NCBI RefSeq assembly: GCF_000265465.1
Contig: NC_018016.1
Coordinates: 1,466,501 to 1,530,500 of the forward strand
DNA length: 64,000 nucleotides
Direction of reading: 5' to 3'
DNA from: Ornithobacterium rhinotracheale DSM 15997
Lineage (GTDB): Bacteria > Bacteroidota > Bacteroidia > Flavobacteriales > Weeksellaceae
The notes under the pieces were generated by a model. The model ran no database searches and was not told the DNA's origin. It worked only from the letters and a program-made list of their open reading frames with translations. Shown here piece by piece: positions 24,330 through 28,315 of this stretch. The stretch's first letter is position 1. Each line of letters opens with the position of its first letter. Both the position numbers and the translations under genes were made by a program.

Positions 24330-24438
24330 GAAAAAAAGAATTTTATAGTTTTATCACTGCAATATTACTAAAAAGAATTTTAAATTTCTACATTAGGTCT
24401 TGCTAAAATTCAACAAACAAAACTTTTAATAGAAAAAA

Positions 24439-24471
24439 TTAGGAAGTTTCCTAAAACTTTTTATAGCTTTG
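24439..24471 (+). promoter_or_regulatory. Promoter with an overlapping perfect palindrome, upstream of the phase-variable leader
   Basis: TAGCTTTG (24464-24471) fits TAnnTTTG, 10 nt before an ATG. Upstream, TTAGGAA-GT-TTCCTAA (24439-24454) is a perfect 7-bp inverted repeat lying where the -33 box would be; no canonical TTG is present there. The palindrome looks like an operator for a dimeric regulator. The stretch 24330-24438 holds nothing else that I recognise. Confidence 0.55.
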
Positions 24472-24481
24472 CCCCACTCTT

Positions 24482-24965
<484 letters not shown>

Positions 24966-25064
24966 CACCACGGTAAGGCTTTTTTTATGAAAACAAGGGG
25001 AATAAAAAAATAATAACAGATGCAAATATATAAACAGAATAGAAACTTTTTAAAATTAAATTTT

Positions 25065-25709
25065 ATGAAAAAGACAATGTTAAGTTTAGGAGTATTCGCC
25101 TTGTTAGGCTTGAGTACCCAAGTATTCGGACAAGTAGAGACTGCTACGGAAGGACCTTTGAGTAAAGATGCCGTAGGAATAAACACCGATGAGCCTACCG
25201 CAACCTTAGATGTGAATGGGGGAGCGCGTGTAAGAAAAGCGAGAGCTGCCGTATTGCCTACAGACCCGAAAGTAAAAGCCACCGAGATTTTGGTAGTAGA
25301 CAAAGATGGAAACTTATTGCGTTTGCCAATTAGTACCACTACGCTACAAGAGTTAGTAGGTTCCGCTCCAACAAGTGGTGCACAGCCAGGGGGAACTGTA
25401 AATGGCTTTCCAGCTCAAACGAAGTTAGGAAAAACCATTGCAAGCATTAGAACTAAAGAATTACCAATGTTAGCAACTGATTGGACAGATTCAGACTATA
25501 CAATCGTTATTAAAGGGGATGGAGATGGTATTGCTCTTCCTTCCGCAAAAAATAATAAAGGAAGAATTTTATGTATAAGAAATGGAGAAACAACCAATAG
25601 AACCTATTTTGGAAGTGATATTCCAAAGAACAATGGGGCAATAGGAGGAAACAGAGGTCAAGTATTGCAGTCTGATGGTGAATATTGGTGGGTGATTGGA
25701 GGTTTTTAA
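25065..25709 (+). CDS. Exported protein with a tail-fibre-like GINTDEPTATLDVNG repeat start
   Basis: From the ATG at 25065 the protein is 214 aa with a signal peptide (LSLGVFALLGLSTQVFGQ). After it comes VGINTDEPTATLDVNGGARV, a motif common in Bacteroidota surface and tail-fibre-like proteins. The rest is a beta-rich domain ending in GQVLQSDGEYWWVIGGF. An in-frame ATG at 25020 would place the signal peptide internally, so it was rejected. It is 19 nt before the FISUMP gene and forms an operon with it. No T9SS C-terminal domain is visible. Function is unknown; it is probably surface-associated. Confidence 0.7.
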   Translation: MKKTMLSLGVFALLGLSTQVFGQVETATEGPLSKDAVGINTDEPTATLDVNGGARVRKARAAVLPTDPKVKATEILVVDKDGNLLRLPISTTTLQELVGSAPTSGAQPGGTVNGFPAQTKLGKTIASIRTKELPMLATDWTDSDYTIVIKGDGDGIALPSAKNNKGRILCIRNGETTNRTYFGSDIPKNNGAIGGNRGQVLQSDGEYWWVIGGF

Positions 25710-25728: not shown

Positions 25729-27645
25729 ATGAAAAAGATATTTATCAGTTTATCTCTTTTAGGGTTAGCAGTAGGCTATGCTCAAAATACGACGAATAGC
25801 ACAATTGCTTTGACCATTGATAAAAACTACTTTTTAGATGGTTCATTTAATACCTTCTCAAAGGTTTCTTTAGGAAAAGGTTTAAATTTTCCGAGAACAG
25901 ATTTAACAAAGTTTGAGTTTAGTACTACAGATTTAGGTGGATACCAATATTCTCGCACTGCTTTTGATGGTATGATAGTGTATAATACCGCAAAGGGAAC
26001 CACGGGAAGTAATGCCGCTACGCAAGGAAAACAAGTGTCTGTAACACCAGGCTTTTATTATTTCTATAATCCTAAAGGGACAGAAAAAACAACAGATTTA
26101 TCAGAAGGGCAATGGGTGCGTTTGGGCGCGGAATCAGTAACATCTACTTTAAGCACTTTGCCAAAATATAGCACAGAAGAAAGAGATAAGTTAAAAGTTG
26201 TAGAAGAAGGAACCATTATTTATAATACCACCACCAAGCAAGTAGAGGTGTATAATGGTACGGGTTGGGTGCCGGTATCTGGAGTAGCTACCACCAACCC
26301 AGGCGGAGGCACCCCAGTATCTCCAGGCACAGGTCCAGGTACAGGCGTAACACCTCCACCAAGCACTACCACCTATTCTGCTACCAAAACGGGAACTTAC
26401 CGCAAAAGTTTTACTAGAAACAATTGTGGGGCTGGTTATATAGGGGGAAGTCATGAAGTGTCTCACCAATCACAAGCTACGGCAACCAGTACTATAAGCC
26501 AAGAGGATGCTGATAGAAAGGCATTAGATGCCGCAGTAGCCGCAGCCACCCAATGGGTGATTGCCAATGGGCAAAGAGAGGCAAATAGCCGTGGACAATG
26601 TAGACAAGACCCCAATAGTGGCGTTGCGAATTTAGGAAATGGAGTCCGCGCTACTTTGCAAGATGCAAAAGGCTATGTGGTATCGCTTACTTATCAAGGA
26701 GCACAAGTGCAGGGAAAAATAGACAATGGAAGTAATAAGGTGCAGATACAAATTCCGTATACAGGAGGAAATGGAGGAAGCTATGGGCGAGTAACCGCCC
26801 AAACGCAAACCCTTGCGAGAGCAGCCCAAGATGGAAGAAGTACAGCGGCAACCTTAACAATCCCTGCTGGTCAATTAGCCAATGGAAATGGTTATATCTC
26901 AGCAGAGATGAGTACGCCAAGTCTTTACAAAGTAAAAATGCTAGCCCCAGGACAAACTGAAAAGGTGGCAGAGTTTAAAGTACGCATCAATGGACAAGAG
27001 AAAACAGTGGTGGTGAATGCTTTAGGCGGTATCCCAGATAAGAAGTTTAATGTAATGACCAATGGTAGATTAGAGCACCAGTTTGTGTATATTCCTATCA
27101 CAGGTCCAGATGGCAGAACATGGTTAAATAACAATTTAGGAGCGGATTATGCTAATGTTAATTCTCCACACTTTAATCCAACCCAGCAGGCTACAAGTAA
27201 GGCTGATTATAAGGCATATGGTTCGTTGTTCCAGCGGGGTAGAGAGGCAAATGGACATGAGTTAGTAGATTGGACAAGGTTCATTTTTGGACGTGTAGTT
27301 CATTCAAATCTGTCTTGGAGTAGAGATATGTTGTCAAGTTTAACCACTTATCATGATCCATGTCCAAATGGGTATCATACTCCATCTAAGTCCGAGTGGG
27401 AACAATTGTTCCGCGCAGTGGGTTCAGGCAATTCAATGTGGAAAGAGCGTAAGTTAAATCTTCCCGCTGCAGGCTTCCGCAACTACGCCAATGGTTCGCA
27501 GTTCAGTCACACAGGTAGCGGCGGCTACTACTGGTCGTCTACGCAGAGCCTCTACGCATGGGAGTTGCGCTTCAGCTCAAGCGGTAGCAGCATGGGCAAA
27601 ACCAGTCCTTCCTACGGGTATCCGGTTCGTTGCCTCAAGGATTAG
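25729..27645 (+). CDS. Exported FISUMP (Fib_succ_major) domain protein with a DUF5977-like region
   Basis: 638 aa. In order: signal peptide (IFISLSLLGLAVGYAQ); an N-terminal beta-rich region of about 180 residues; a Gly/Pro/Thr linker; a DUF5977-like segment (about 216-290, RKSFTRNNCGAGYIGGS ... ANSRGQC); an Ig-like region; and a C-terminal Fib_succ_major/FISUMP domain (about 460-638) starting near DGRTWLNNNLGADY. The domain includes CPNGYHTPSKSEWEQLF, GGYYWSST and a final PVRCLKD. FISUMP is a C-type-lectin-like fold used as a display scaffold. The last 60 codons are GC-rich and look like a DGR variable region (see the separate entry). It is followed by a hairpin and an HU-like gene. Confidence 0.8.
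   Translation: MKKIFISLSLLGLAVGYAQNTTNSTIALTIDKNYFLDGSFNTFSKVSLGKGLNFPRTDLTKFEFSTTDLGGYQYSRTAFDGMIVYNTAKGTTGSNAATQGKQVSVTPGFYYFYNPKGTEKTTDLSEGQWVRLGAESVTSTLSTLPKYSTEERDKLKVVEEGTIIYNTTTKQVEVYNGTGWVPVSGVATTNPGGGTPVSPGTGPGTGVTPPPSTTTYSATKTGTYRKSFTRNNCGAGYIGGSHEVSHQSQATATSTISQEDADRKALDAAVAAATQWVIANGQREANSRGQCRQDPNSGVANLGNGVRATLQDAKGYVVSLTYQGAQVQGKIDNGSNKVQIQIPYTGGNGGSYGRVTAQTQTLARAAQDGRSTAATLTIPAGQLANGNGYISAEMSTPSLYKVKMLAPGQTEKVAEFKVRINGQEKTVVVNALGGIPDKKFNVMTNGRLEHQFVYIPITGPDGRTWLNNNLGADYANVNSPHFNPTQQATSKADYKAYGSLFQRGREANGHELVDWTRFIFGRVVHSNLSWSRDMLSSLTTYHDPCPNGYHTPSKSEWEQLFRAVGSGNSMWKERKLNLPAAGFRNYANGSQFSHTGSGGYYWSSTQSLYAWELRFSSSGSSMGKTSPSYGYPVRCLKD
27472..27645 (+). other. Candidate hypervariable region (DGR-VR-like) at the FISUMP C-terminus
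   Basis: In 27481-27600, 68 of 120 bases are G or C, far above the AT-rich surroundings (25 of 60 in 26401-26460). Codon usage also shifts: many codons end in C with varied first two bases (TTC, CAC, AGC, GGC, TAC, CTC, CGC), as expected if AAC codons of a template were mutagenised at adenines. Scaffold residues (YYWSST, YAW, PVRCLKD) are kept. FISUMP domains are known targets of diversity-generating retroelements. No reverse transcriptase or template repeat is in this window, so the assignment is an inference. Confidence 0.45.
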
Positions 27646-27747: not shown

Positions 27748-28131
27748 ATGAGCATTAAATATAAAGTAGTAGAGAGAGGTCAGCCCGGTGTAAAAGGTGG
27801 CGGGACCAAGAAGTTTTATGCCAATGTGGTGAACGATGGAGAGTATAGTATAGACGATTTGGTAAAACAAATTGAGAAGTTTTCGGCACTCAGCGAGGCA
27901 GACATCCGTGGTGTCATCATTGCGCTAGAGAATGTAATTCAAGACGCCTTGGCCGCCAGCAAGATTGTACGCTTAGAGAAACTAGGAACGCTCTACCCTA
28001 CGCTAAGCAGTGGAGCTGCCGCAAGCGAGAAGGAGTTTCAAGCGGGATTAATCAAGAAAGTAGGCGTAAACTACCGCCCAGGCAAGCGTATTCTAGATGC
28101 GATGAAGTCGGCAGGATTTGAAAAGGCGTAG
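27748..28131 (+). CDS. HU-related histone-like DNA-binding protein (TIGR01201-type)
   Basis: 127 aa with the HU/IHF-related fold of the Bacteroidota HU_rel family. It has an N-terminal extension (VVERGQPGVKGGGTKKFY), a helical part (SEADIRGVIIALENVIQDAL), and the DNA-binding arm and C-terminus VRLEKLGTLYPTLSSG ... VNYRPGKRILDAM. It follows the FISUMP gene by about 100 nt and is followed by a terminator. HU-related genes of this type often sit beside variable surface loci in this phylum. A role in recombination or silencing of the neighbouring cassette is inferred. Confidence 0.88.
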   Translation: MSIKYKVVERGQPGVKGGGTKKFYANVVNDGEYSIDDLVKQIEKFSALSEADIRGVIIALENVIQDALAASKIVRLEKLGTLYPTLSSGAAASEKEFQAGLIKKVGVNYRPGKRILDAMKSAGFEKA

Positions 28132-28159: not shown

Positions 28160-28194
28160 AAAAGGCACTATTTTTTAGTGCCTTTCTTTTTTTT
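28160..28194 (+). terminator. Intrinsic terminator after the HU-like gene
   Basis: The stem AAAGGCACTA / TAGTGCCTTT is followed by a C and then T8. Confidence 0.87.
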
Positions 28195-28205: not shown

Positions 28206-28315
28206 AAAACCTGCGCAAGTTCCAACAGAAACCCGCGCGGGTTTGGGCTAAAACTTGCGCGGGTTTGGAGCAAAACCTGCGCAGGTTTCAAGACAATGTT
28301 GCGCAGGTTTTATGC
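28206..28315. repeat. Five tandem 22-bp units with a palindromic TGCGCA core
   Basis: The GCGC cores are at 28213, 28235, 28257, 28279 and 28301, a period of exactly 22 bp with no spacers. The fourth unit has the perfect palindrome AACCTGCGCAGGTT; the others vary at one or two symmetric positions. Twenty-two bp is about two helical turns, so the palindromes face the same side of the helix, as in a cooperative protein-binding array. The unit length is not a multiple of three and no ORF crosses it. The rest of 28316-28508 holds nothing recognised. Confidence 0.9.

Follow-up and report, generated by a model that had tools for sequence, protein, structure and literature searches.

A dispersed element that precedes surface operons in Ornithobacterium rhinotracheale DSM 15997 is, with a probability of about 80%, a phase-variable, translation-coupled transcription attenuator. 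The copy described here (Table 1) lies in the window, i.e., the whole 64,000-nt stretch of DNA that was analyzed. The reading draws on directly observed properties of the element, which comprise its anatomy, a three-phase logic at 59 loci, selection that keeps the frame open while constraining the peptide little, base pairing, and differences in repeat number between sister loci that are otherwise near-identical.

In the proposed switch, transcription would start shortly upstream of the leader ATG, and ribosomes would translate the (AC)n tract in every phase. In two of the three phases, they would encounter a stop codon within ~20 nt past the repeat and leave the transcript. The ~320 nt of leader RNA that are thereby left bare would allow the terminator to fold, and the cassette for the exported protein, the Fibrobacter succinogenes major (FISUMP) domain protein, and the HU protein would stay untranscribed (OFF). 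With 22, 25, or 28 units (third phase), the ribosomes would instead trail the RNA polymerase and come to a halt at the stop codon, which is located in the loop of the terminator. The footprint of the halted ribosome (~24945-24977) would cover most of both arms, so that the terminator could not form and transcription would go on (ON). Replication slippage, which adds or removes AC units, would make each change of state heritable. Leader translation, termination or read-through, and their control of operon expression are what we infer from the features described below.

Table 1. Features of the window copy and of the cassette that follows it (positions in the window).
Feature	Position	Strand	Basis or remark
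Dispersed repeat element (promoter, leader ORF, AC repeat, terminator), ~545 nt	24448..24992	+	15 genome copies
Bacteroidota -7 promoter element TAGCTTTG (TAnnTTTG)	24464..24471	+	Motif match
Leader ORF start and 5′ part (peptide MKQRVQHIMNYDKFNNFFLFSSRKSVN-)	24482..24560	+	ATG at -79 from AC run
(AC)24.5 microsatellite, candidate slippage switch, codes (His-Thr)n	24561..24609	+	Own copies 4-28 units
Two early stop codons closing both OFF phases	24620-24622, 24625-24627	+	Direct translation
ON-phase leader continuation, end TAA 24963-24965	24610..24965	+	Open frame kept in own copies, pN/pS 0.67
First hairpin within leader frame (AAAGCCAAAG...TTGGCTTT), possible earlier terminator	24720..24756	+	Termination presumed
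Intrinsic terminator: 13-pair stem, 13-nt loop with leader stop, T7	24942..24986	+	Predicted fold and pairing across copies
First cassette gene: exported 214-aa protein, no Pfam match	25065..25709	+	Signal peptide by eye
Exported 638-aa protein, DUF5977 and FISUMP domain	25729..27645	+	
HU-HIG/HU family DNA-binding protein	27748..28131	+	
Terminator-like site closing cassette	28161..28194	+	

The window terminator is formed by the arms GCCTTGCTGTGG (24943-24954) and CCACGGTAAGGC (24968-24979), which pair over 12 bp including two G-U pairs; the 13th, outer pair is also G-U. The loop spans 24955-24967, T7 occupies 24980-24986, and the distance from the T run to the ATG of the first cassette gene (25065) is 79 nt. 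With a minimum free energy of -21.5 kcal/mol (z = -3.97), the fold was equaled in none of 200 shuffles. A sequence-only reading of this DNA had claimed a 12-bp hairpin with T7 as a strong terminator 79 nt upstream of the exported-protein gene, and both coordinates and fold agree with it. The same is true for the leader stop TAA 24963-24965, which direct translation of the long leader frame places inside the terminator loop. The terminator loses all structure when 24945-24978 is barred from pairing, a constraint that mimics a ribosome positioned at the stop codon. Terminators of the window type, compared over eight distinct sequences, pair in 100% of the cells, and one pair has changed on both sides; covariation is slight because these copies are too alike. 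The first hairpin of genome G003 has 17 consensus pairs, five of which are changed on both sides.

The leader frame starts at ATG 24482 (or 24506) and crosses the AC repeat, which codes for alternating His and Thr in any frame. Direct translation shows where each phase ends: at 24622 with 24 units, at 24627 with 23 or 26 units, and at the TAA in the terminator loop only with 22, 25, 28 units, and so on. The window locus is predicted to be OFF, since its 24 full units put the leader stop at 24622. From 24610 to 24963, the ON frame is free of stops while the other two frames contain 11 to 13 each, and the chance of any frame staying open this far is ~0 (dinucleotide shuffles, 15 own copies). The first hairpin inside this frame carries a T run that is weak in the window, whereas sister copies, for example L042, have a good one. 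Classical in-gene phase variation of the opa or oipA type also shifts a frame by slippage. In the window, by contrast, the frame ends at 24965 in the terminator and the cassette starts at 25065, so that the repeat is not in frame within the switched product. An inverted repeat (CTTTTTCTTG...CGAGAAAAAG, 24529-24555) was further observed just upstream of the AC run and recurs at the same place in other loci; in Riemerella-genus loci it reads AATTATTTGG...CCAAATAATT. It might have a role in slippage or RNA structure.

The -7 element ends 11 nt before ATG 24482, and from this known motif the transcription start is predicted at ~24477, ~5 nt before the ATG. A TAnnTTTG motif at -94 to -98 from the AC run is found in 55 of the 57 loci with an ATG at -79. 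In 50 of all 82 tabulated loci, the first start codon listed is an ATG that lies exactly 79 nt before the AC run, and the frame opened by this ATG runs stop-free into the repeat. Between terminator and gene, the TAnnTTTG motif is absent in 18 of 19 own loci, the window included. This argues against a separate transcription start between 24986 and 25065, which the sequence-only reading had named as one of the findings that would refute attenuation if it supplied all cassette mRNA. The exception is L051, where several TAnnTTTG motifs and a 281-aa ORF on the opposite strand separate the leader from the FISUMP gene; by eye, this ORF resembles a transposase. Where other copies carry a TTG, ~19 nt before the -7 element, the sequence of the window copy is TTAGGAAG (24436-24450), and its -33 element may be weaker for this reason. 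No relatives of the 214-aa protein encoded by the first cassette gene were found in a search of the genome contigs. Just past the cassette terminator, a 22-bp tandem repeat (2.7 copies) occupies 28229-28288.

With 24400-25100 as the query, 14 places were returned from the own genome, and the divergent 15th copy (L099) was found via its repeat. Promoter element, ATG, repeat, ~340 nt of sequence, and terminator are present in all aligned copies, and the similarity stops just past the terminator in most of them. The genes that follow encode signal-peptide proteins, FISUMP-domain proteins, and HU-HIG DNA-binding proteins. The same layout with different leader sequences is seen at four more own loci (L053, L054, L097, and L098). 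AC counts range from 4 to 28 units among the own copies, and unit number is the main difference between sister and orthologous loci. Over 250 nt, the downstream leader of the own locus L097 (22 units, ON) is identical to that of L024 (14 units, OFF), the orthologous locus of a sister species, and the leaders of L044 (15 units, ON) and L050 (4 units, OFF) are likewise identical. As a comparison between loci, L097/L024, L044/L050, and L045/L048 differ in AC unit number while being otherwise identical. Seven of the 19 own loci are predicted to be ON. Over all genomes, this state is predicted for 14 of 76 usable loci, which is below one third.

Several loci depart from the window arrangement in how the ON frame ends. 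In L045 and L048, a +1 shift ends it 47 nt before the last terminator, and in L047 and L051, a -1 shift ends it 9 nt before. These four copies, which speak against the attenuator, are two pairs of similar copies, and the shifts are single-base changes near the frame end. In L053 and L054, the ON leader frame passes a hairpin and directly enters the exported protein, as in in-gene phase variation. The ON leader of L126 (G051) ends in a TGA that overlaps the ATG of the next gene.

The layout of promoter, ATG, (AC)n, hairpin, and surface operon was tabulated for 82 loci from ten genomes in three genera; a fourth genus, represented by a single copy cut by a contig end, was left out. Exclusion of stretches with N left 76 usable loci, 59 of which have a strong downstream hairpin. 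Each of these 59 loci has one, and only one, AC phase out of three that gets to within 15 nt of the first hairpin, and in 57 one phase reaches the last hairpin. The ON frame runs past the last hairpin in 41 loci, ends inside it in 10, 0 to 15 nt before it in six, and earlier in two. The closed phases stop at a median of 14 nt past the repeat (76 loci), as expected from the earlier claim that OFF ribosomes stay far from the terminator. The anatomical predictions of the attenuator proposed in the sequence-only reading are thus borne out in the window and in 58 further loci; the stop codon placed exactly in the loop, which that proposal featured, is one solution among several. Since the loci are related, the segments between repeat and last hairpin were clustered, giving eight clusters without detectable similarity to each other. 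The product of the shuffle probabilities over these clusters, ~4e-10, is a rough guide, because it comes mainly from three large clusters and carries a floor of 1/3000. Independent clusters are few, as the pattern is held by only 11 of 296 family genomes.

The main rival to attenuation by the hairpin is Rho-dependent polarity, in which the bare OFF leader would recruit Rho and the hairpin would be a secondary backstop or shape the 3′ end. The ~320 nt left untranslated in the OFF phases would suit Rho, and an identical conservation of the open frame would follow. The terminator scan found no hairpin in some loci (most of those in G043 and G051), and these still show the three-phase logic. An argument against Rho as the switch is that leaders unrelated in sequence repeatedly carry strong hairpins with a T run. 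Moreover, in a short class of loci, where 8 nt separate the ATG from the repeat (L097 and L098 in the own genome; G001, G002, and G100), only ~60 nt are left before an 18-20 bp hairpin with T run that precedes HU-HIG or other genes, which is short for Rho loading. Rho in place of the terminator is improbable; it could act alongside attenuation.

With a translation-coupled attenuator, the frame would be expected to stay open largely regardless of what it encodes. Past the repeat, no stops were found in 47 aligned copies (15 own, 11 from G003, and 21 from three Riemerella-genus genomes), counting the frame in L045, L047, L048, and L051 only up to the shifted stop. Without selection, 12.1 own, 10.1 G003, and 18.7 Riemerella-genus copies (~41 of 47) would be expected to contain one. 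The pN/pS of the leader frame is 0.67-0.68. A neutral simulation that forbids stops only gives 0.84-0.88, and the lower observed value indicates some peptide constraint. Zero stops combined with weak constraint is the pattern that would be expected if the act of translation counts, and judged from these comparisons the leader peptide seems weakly constrained while its translatability is kept, so that translation would matter more than the product. Gap lengths showed no clear bias toward multiples of three (5/10, 6/9, and 6/16), although such a bias had been expected. ATG codons in the ON frame number 5 versus 39 and 49 in the other two frames of the own loci, 3 versus 10 and 17 in the Riemerella genus, and 11 versus 10 and 2 in G003; this depletion was not used as evidence because G003 lacks it.

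The residual peptide constraint could alternatively mean that the product of the long frame is a small, phase-variable protein with a function of its own, with the terminator as the end of its gene and the cassette served by another promoter. A conserved leader protein was set aside, given a pN/pS of 0.67 and clusters that share no similarity in their post-repeat segments. A separate cassette promoter also finds little room where the TAnnTTTG motif is missing. In addition, a gene end at the terminator does not match the 41 of 59 frames that pass the last hairpin or the L053/L054 frame that enters the exported protein. This explanation is very unlikely. Still less credit is given to a noncoding RNA or riboswitch-like element with a fortuitously open frame. 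The probably identical Ornithobacterium hominis element has been described as noncoding (PMC10353427), and a local AC-complementary motif together with GU-rich terminator loops hints at RNA-RNA pairing. However, an Rfam scan of the window at gathering score returned a tRNA only and no match for the leader, and a fortuitous frame would have to account for the complete lack of stops and for exactly one open frame in each of eight unrelated clusters. An attenuator sensing His/Thr scarcity, as in his or thr leaders, is highly improbable: the repeat does offer alternating His and Thr codons whatever the frame, but these lie ~330 nt upstream of the terminator, unlike the codons of trp/his-type leaders, which adjoin the competing hairpins, a stall at the repeat would leave the terminator bare and lower rather than raise expression, and the downstream genes encode surface proteins instead of biosynthetic enzymes.

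A further candidate for RNA pairing is a GU run in the terminator loop. At 32 loci of G003, G068, G081, and G091, the loop of the last terminator contains a TGTGTGTG run that is complementary to the AC repeat. Of these, G081 is Riemerella anatipestifer CCUG25054, which shares its genus with G051, G068, G091, and G100. GTGTGTG served as the selection criterion for the list, which takes in 11 of 11 G003 loci (L030-L038, L100, and L103) and 21 of 24 from the other three genomes (L101 and L102 in G068; L104-L111, L114, L137, and L138 in G081; L115-L119 and L121-L123 in G091). No hairpin was detected in the remaining three loci (L112, L113, and L120). The duplex between loop and repeat is calculated at about -13 to -14 kcal/mol, and the GU run is kept while the stem changes. 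G003 has this run in codon phase 1 (once 2) and the Riemerella-genus genomes have it in phase 0, which suggests that nucleotides rather than peptide are kept. A GU loop was also sought in the window's own terminator and is absent there. A tentative idea, which we hold to be rather doubtful, is that in these two genera the repeat RNA itself might be a working part of the terminator, with repeat-loop pairing in cis or between the transcripts of different loci tuning or coupling the switches. As a separate observation, G003 and G043 loci contain, in the first 45 nt past the AC repeat, a GCGTGTG(C)G-like motif capable of pairing with the repeat next to it. Its duplex averages ~-10 kcal/mol compared to -2 to -3 in shuffles and is weaker in the own loci.

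Translation that keeps a leader hairpin from forming has a familiar precedent in the pyrBI leader of E. coli. There, UTP-dependent pausing of the polymerase determines whether translation proceeds through the terminator region and prevents the hairpin. The element would resemble pyrBI in the role of the translating ribosome and differ from it in using repeat slippage.

The closest known system is found in Streptococcus gallolyticus, where the pil1 and pil3 pilus loci harbor GCAGA repeats in a leader ORF followed by an intrinsic terminator (PMC3894217). The pil1 switch was tested in 2014 by terminator deletion, loss of the start codon, added stops, and chloramphenicol (PMC3894217). This kind of switch was hence already known from mutation of pil1, and the principle put forward in the sequence-only reading is not new (PMC3894217). 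Common to pil1/pil3 and the window are short repeats in a leader ORF, an intrinsic terminator, and a surface operon downstream, with the frame deciding whether ribosomes end well before or within/near the terminator. Stop codons of the high-expression phase lie inside or just before the hairpin in pil1/pil3, and the stop of the predicted ON phase lies inside it in the window. Like in pil1, the repeat examined here is located in a leader ORF downstream of a promoter (motif match) and ahead of a predicted intrinsic terminator that precedes the operon, one phase ends within, near, or past this terminator, and repeat number varies between otherwise identical loci. The differences concern the repeat (a GCAGA pentamer vs AC) and the scale, with two pilus loci in a Gram-positive organism compared to ~10-20 dispersed loci per genome in Bacteroidota. 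Unlike pil1/pil3, the element has an open leader of ~115 codons after the repeat with several hairpins, and GU-run terminator loops in two genera. Given the different repeat and phylum, an origin independent of pil1 is assumed; if this and the proposed switch are right, repeat-switched attenuation arose at least twice.

Within the family, O. hominis carries "450-bp noncoding sequences" beside FISUMP (FSD) genes (PMC10353427), and a "putative phase variation mechanism" is mentioned without detail (PMC13183296). By this description, the 450-bp sequences are probably the same element: they share the family, the downstream gene class, a similar length, and the dispersed arrangement with the window element. 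In contrast to the reading given here, they are called noncoding, and the accessible text describes no leader ORF, terminator, or mechanism (PMC10353427, PMC13183296). A leader ORF or attenuator in this family was not found described in the open-access literature, and no mechanism was found in the literature on Riemerella, Ornithobacterium, and FISUMP phase variation. The novelty lies in the Bacteroidota setting, in an AC repeat as the variable tract, in a network that spans the genome, and, at 32 loci, in the GU-run terminator loop complementary to the repeat.

If the proposed attenuator is correct, each surface operon would be switched ON or OFF independently of the others by a compact cis element of which the genome has 15 copies, and because the switch acts on transcription, OFF operons would cost almost nothing. 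The probable "noncoding repeat" of the literature would become a readable switch, with the state of a locus predictable from repeat count alone. Such switches would also shape the surface antigens of R. anatipestifer, a poultry pathogen. With dozens of natural variants, the loci would further open a way to study how terminators are overcome by ribosomes in Bacteroidota.

The TAA(AC)n pattern occurs in 4 of 33 genera of the family, mostly with many copies in each genome, while a reversed control pattern is almost absent from the same 296 genomes. Among 247 genomes of the class, a similar pattern was matched in the own genome only, so that beyond a few genera the exact junction of the repeat is rare. 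GTAA(AC)n loci beyond the family were observed in uncultured Bacteroidales (L144 and L145), Bacteroidetes (L148), and Alistipes (L149). L144 and L145, which came from a scan of species genomes, have the same leader layout with a similar peptide end in both, and L148 has one hairpin and one long frame.
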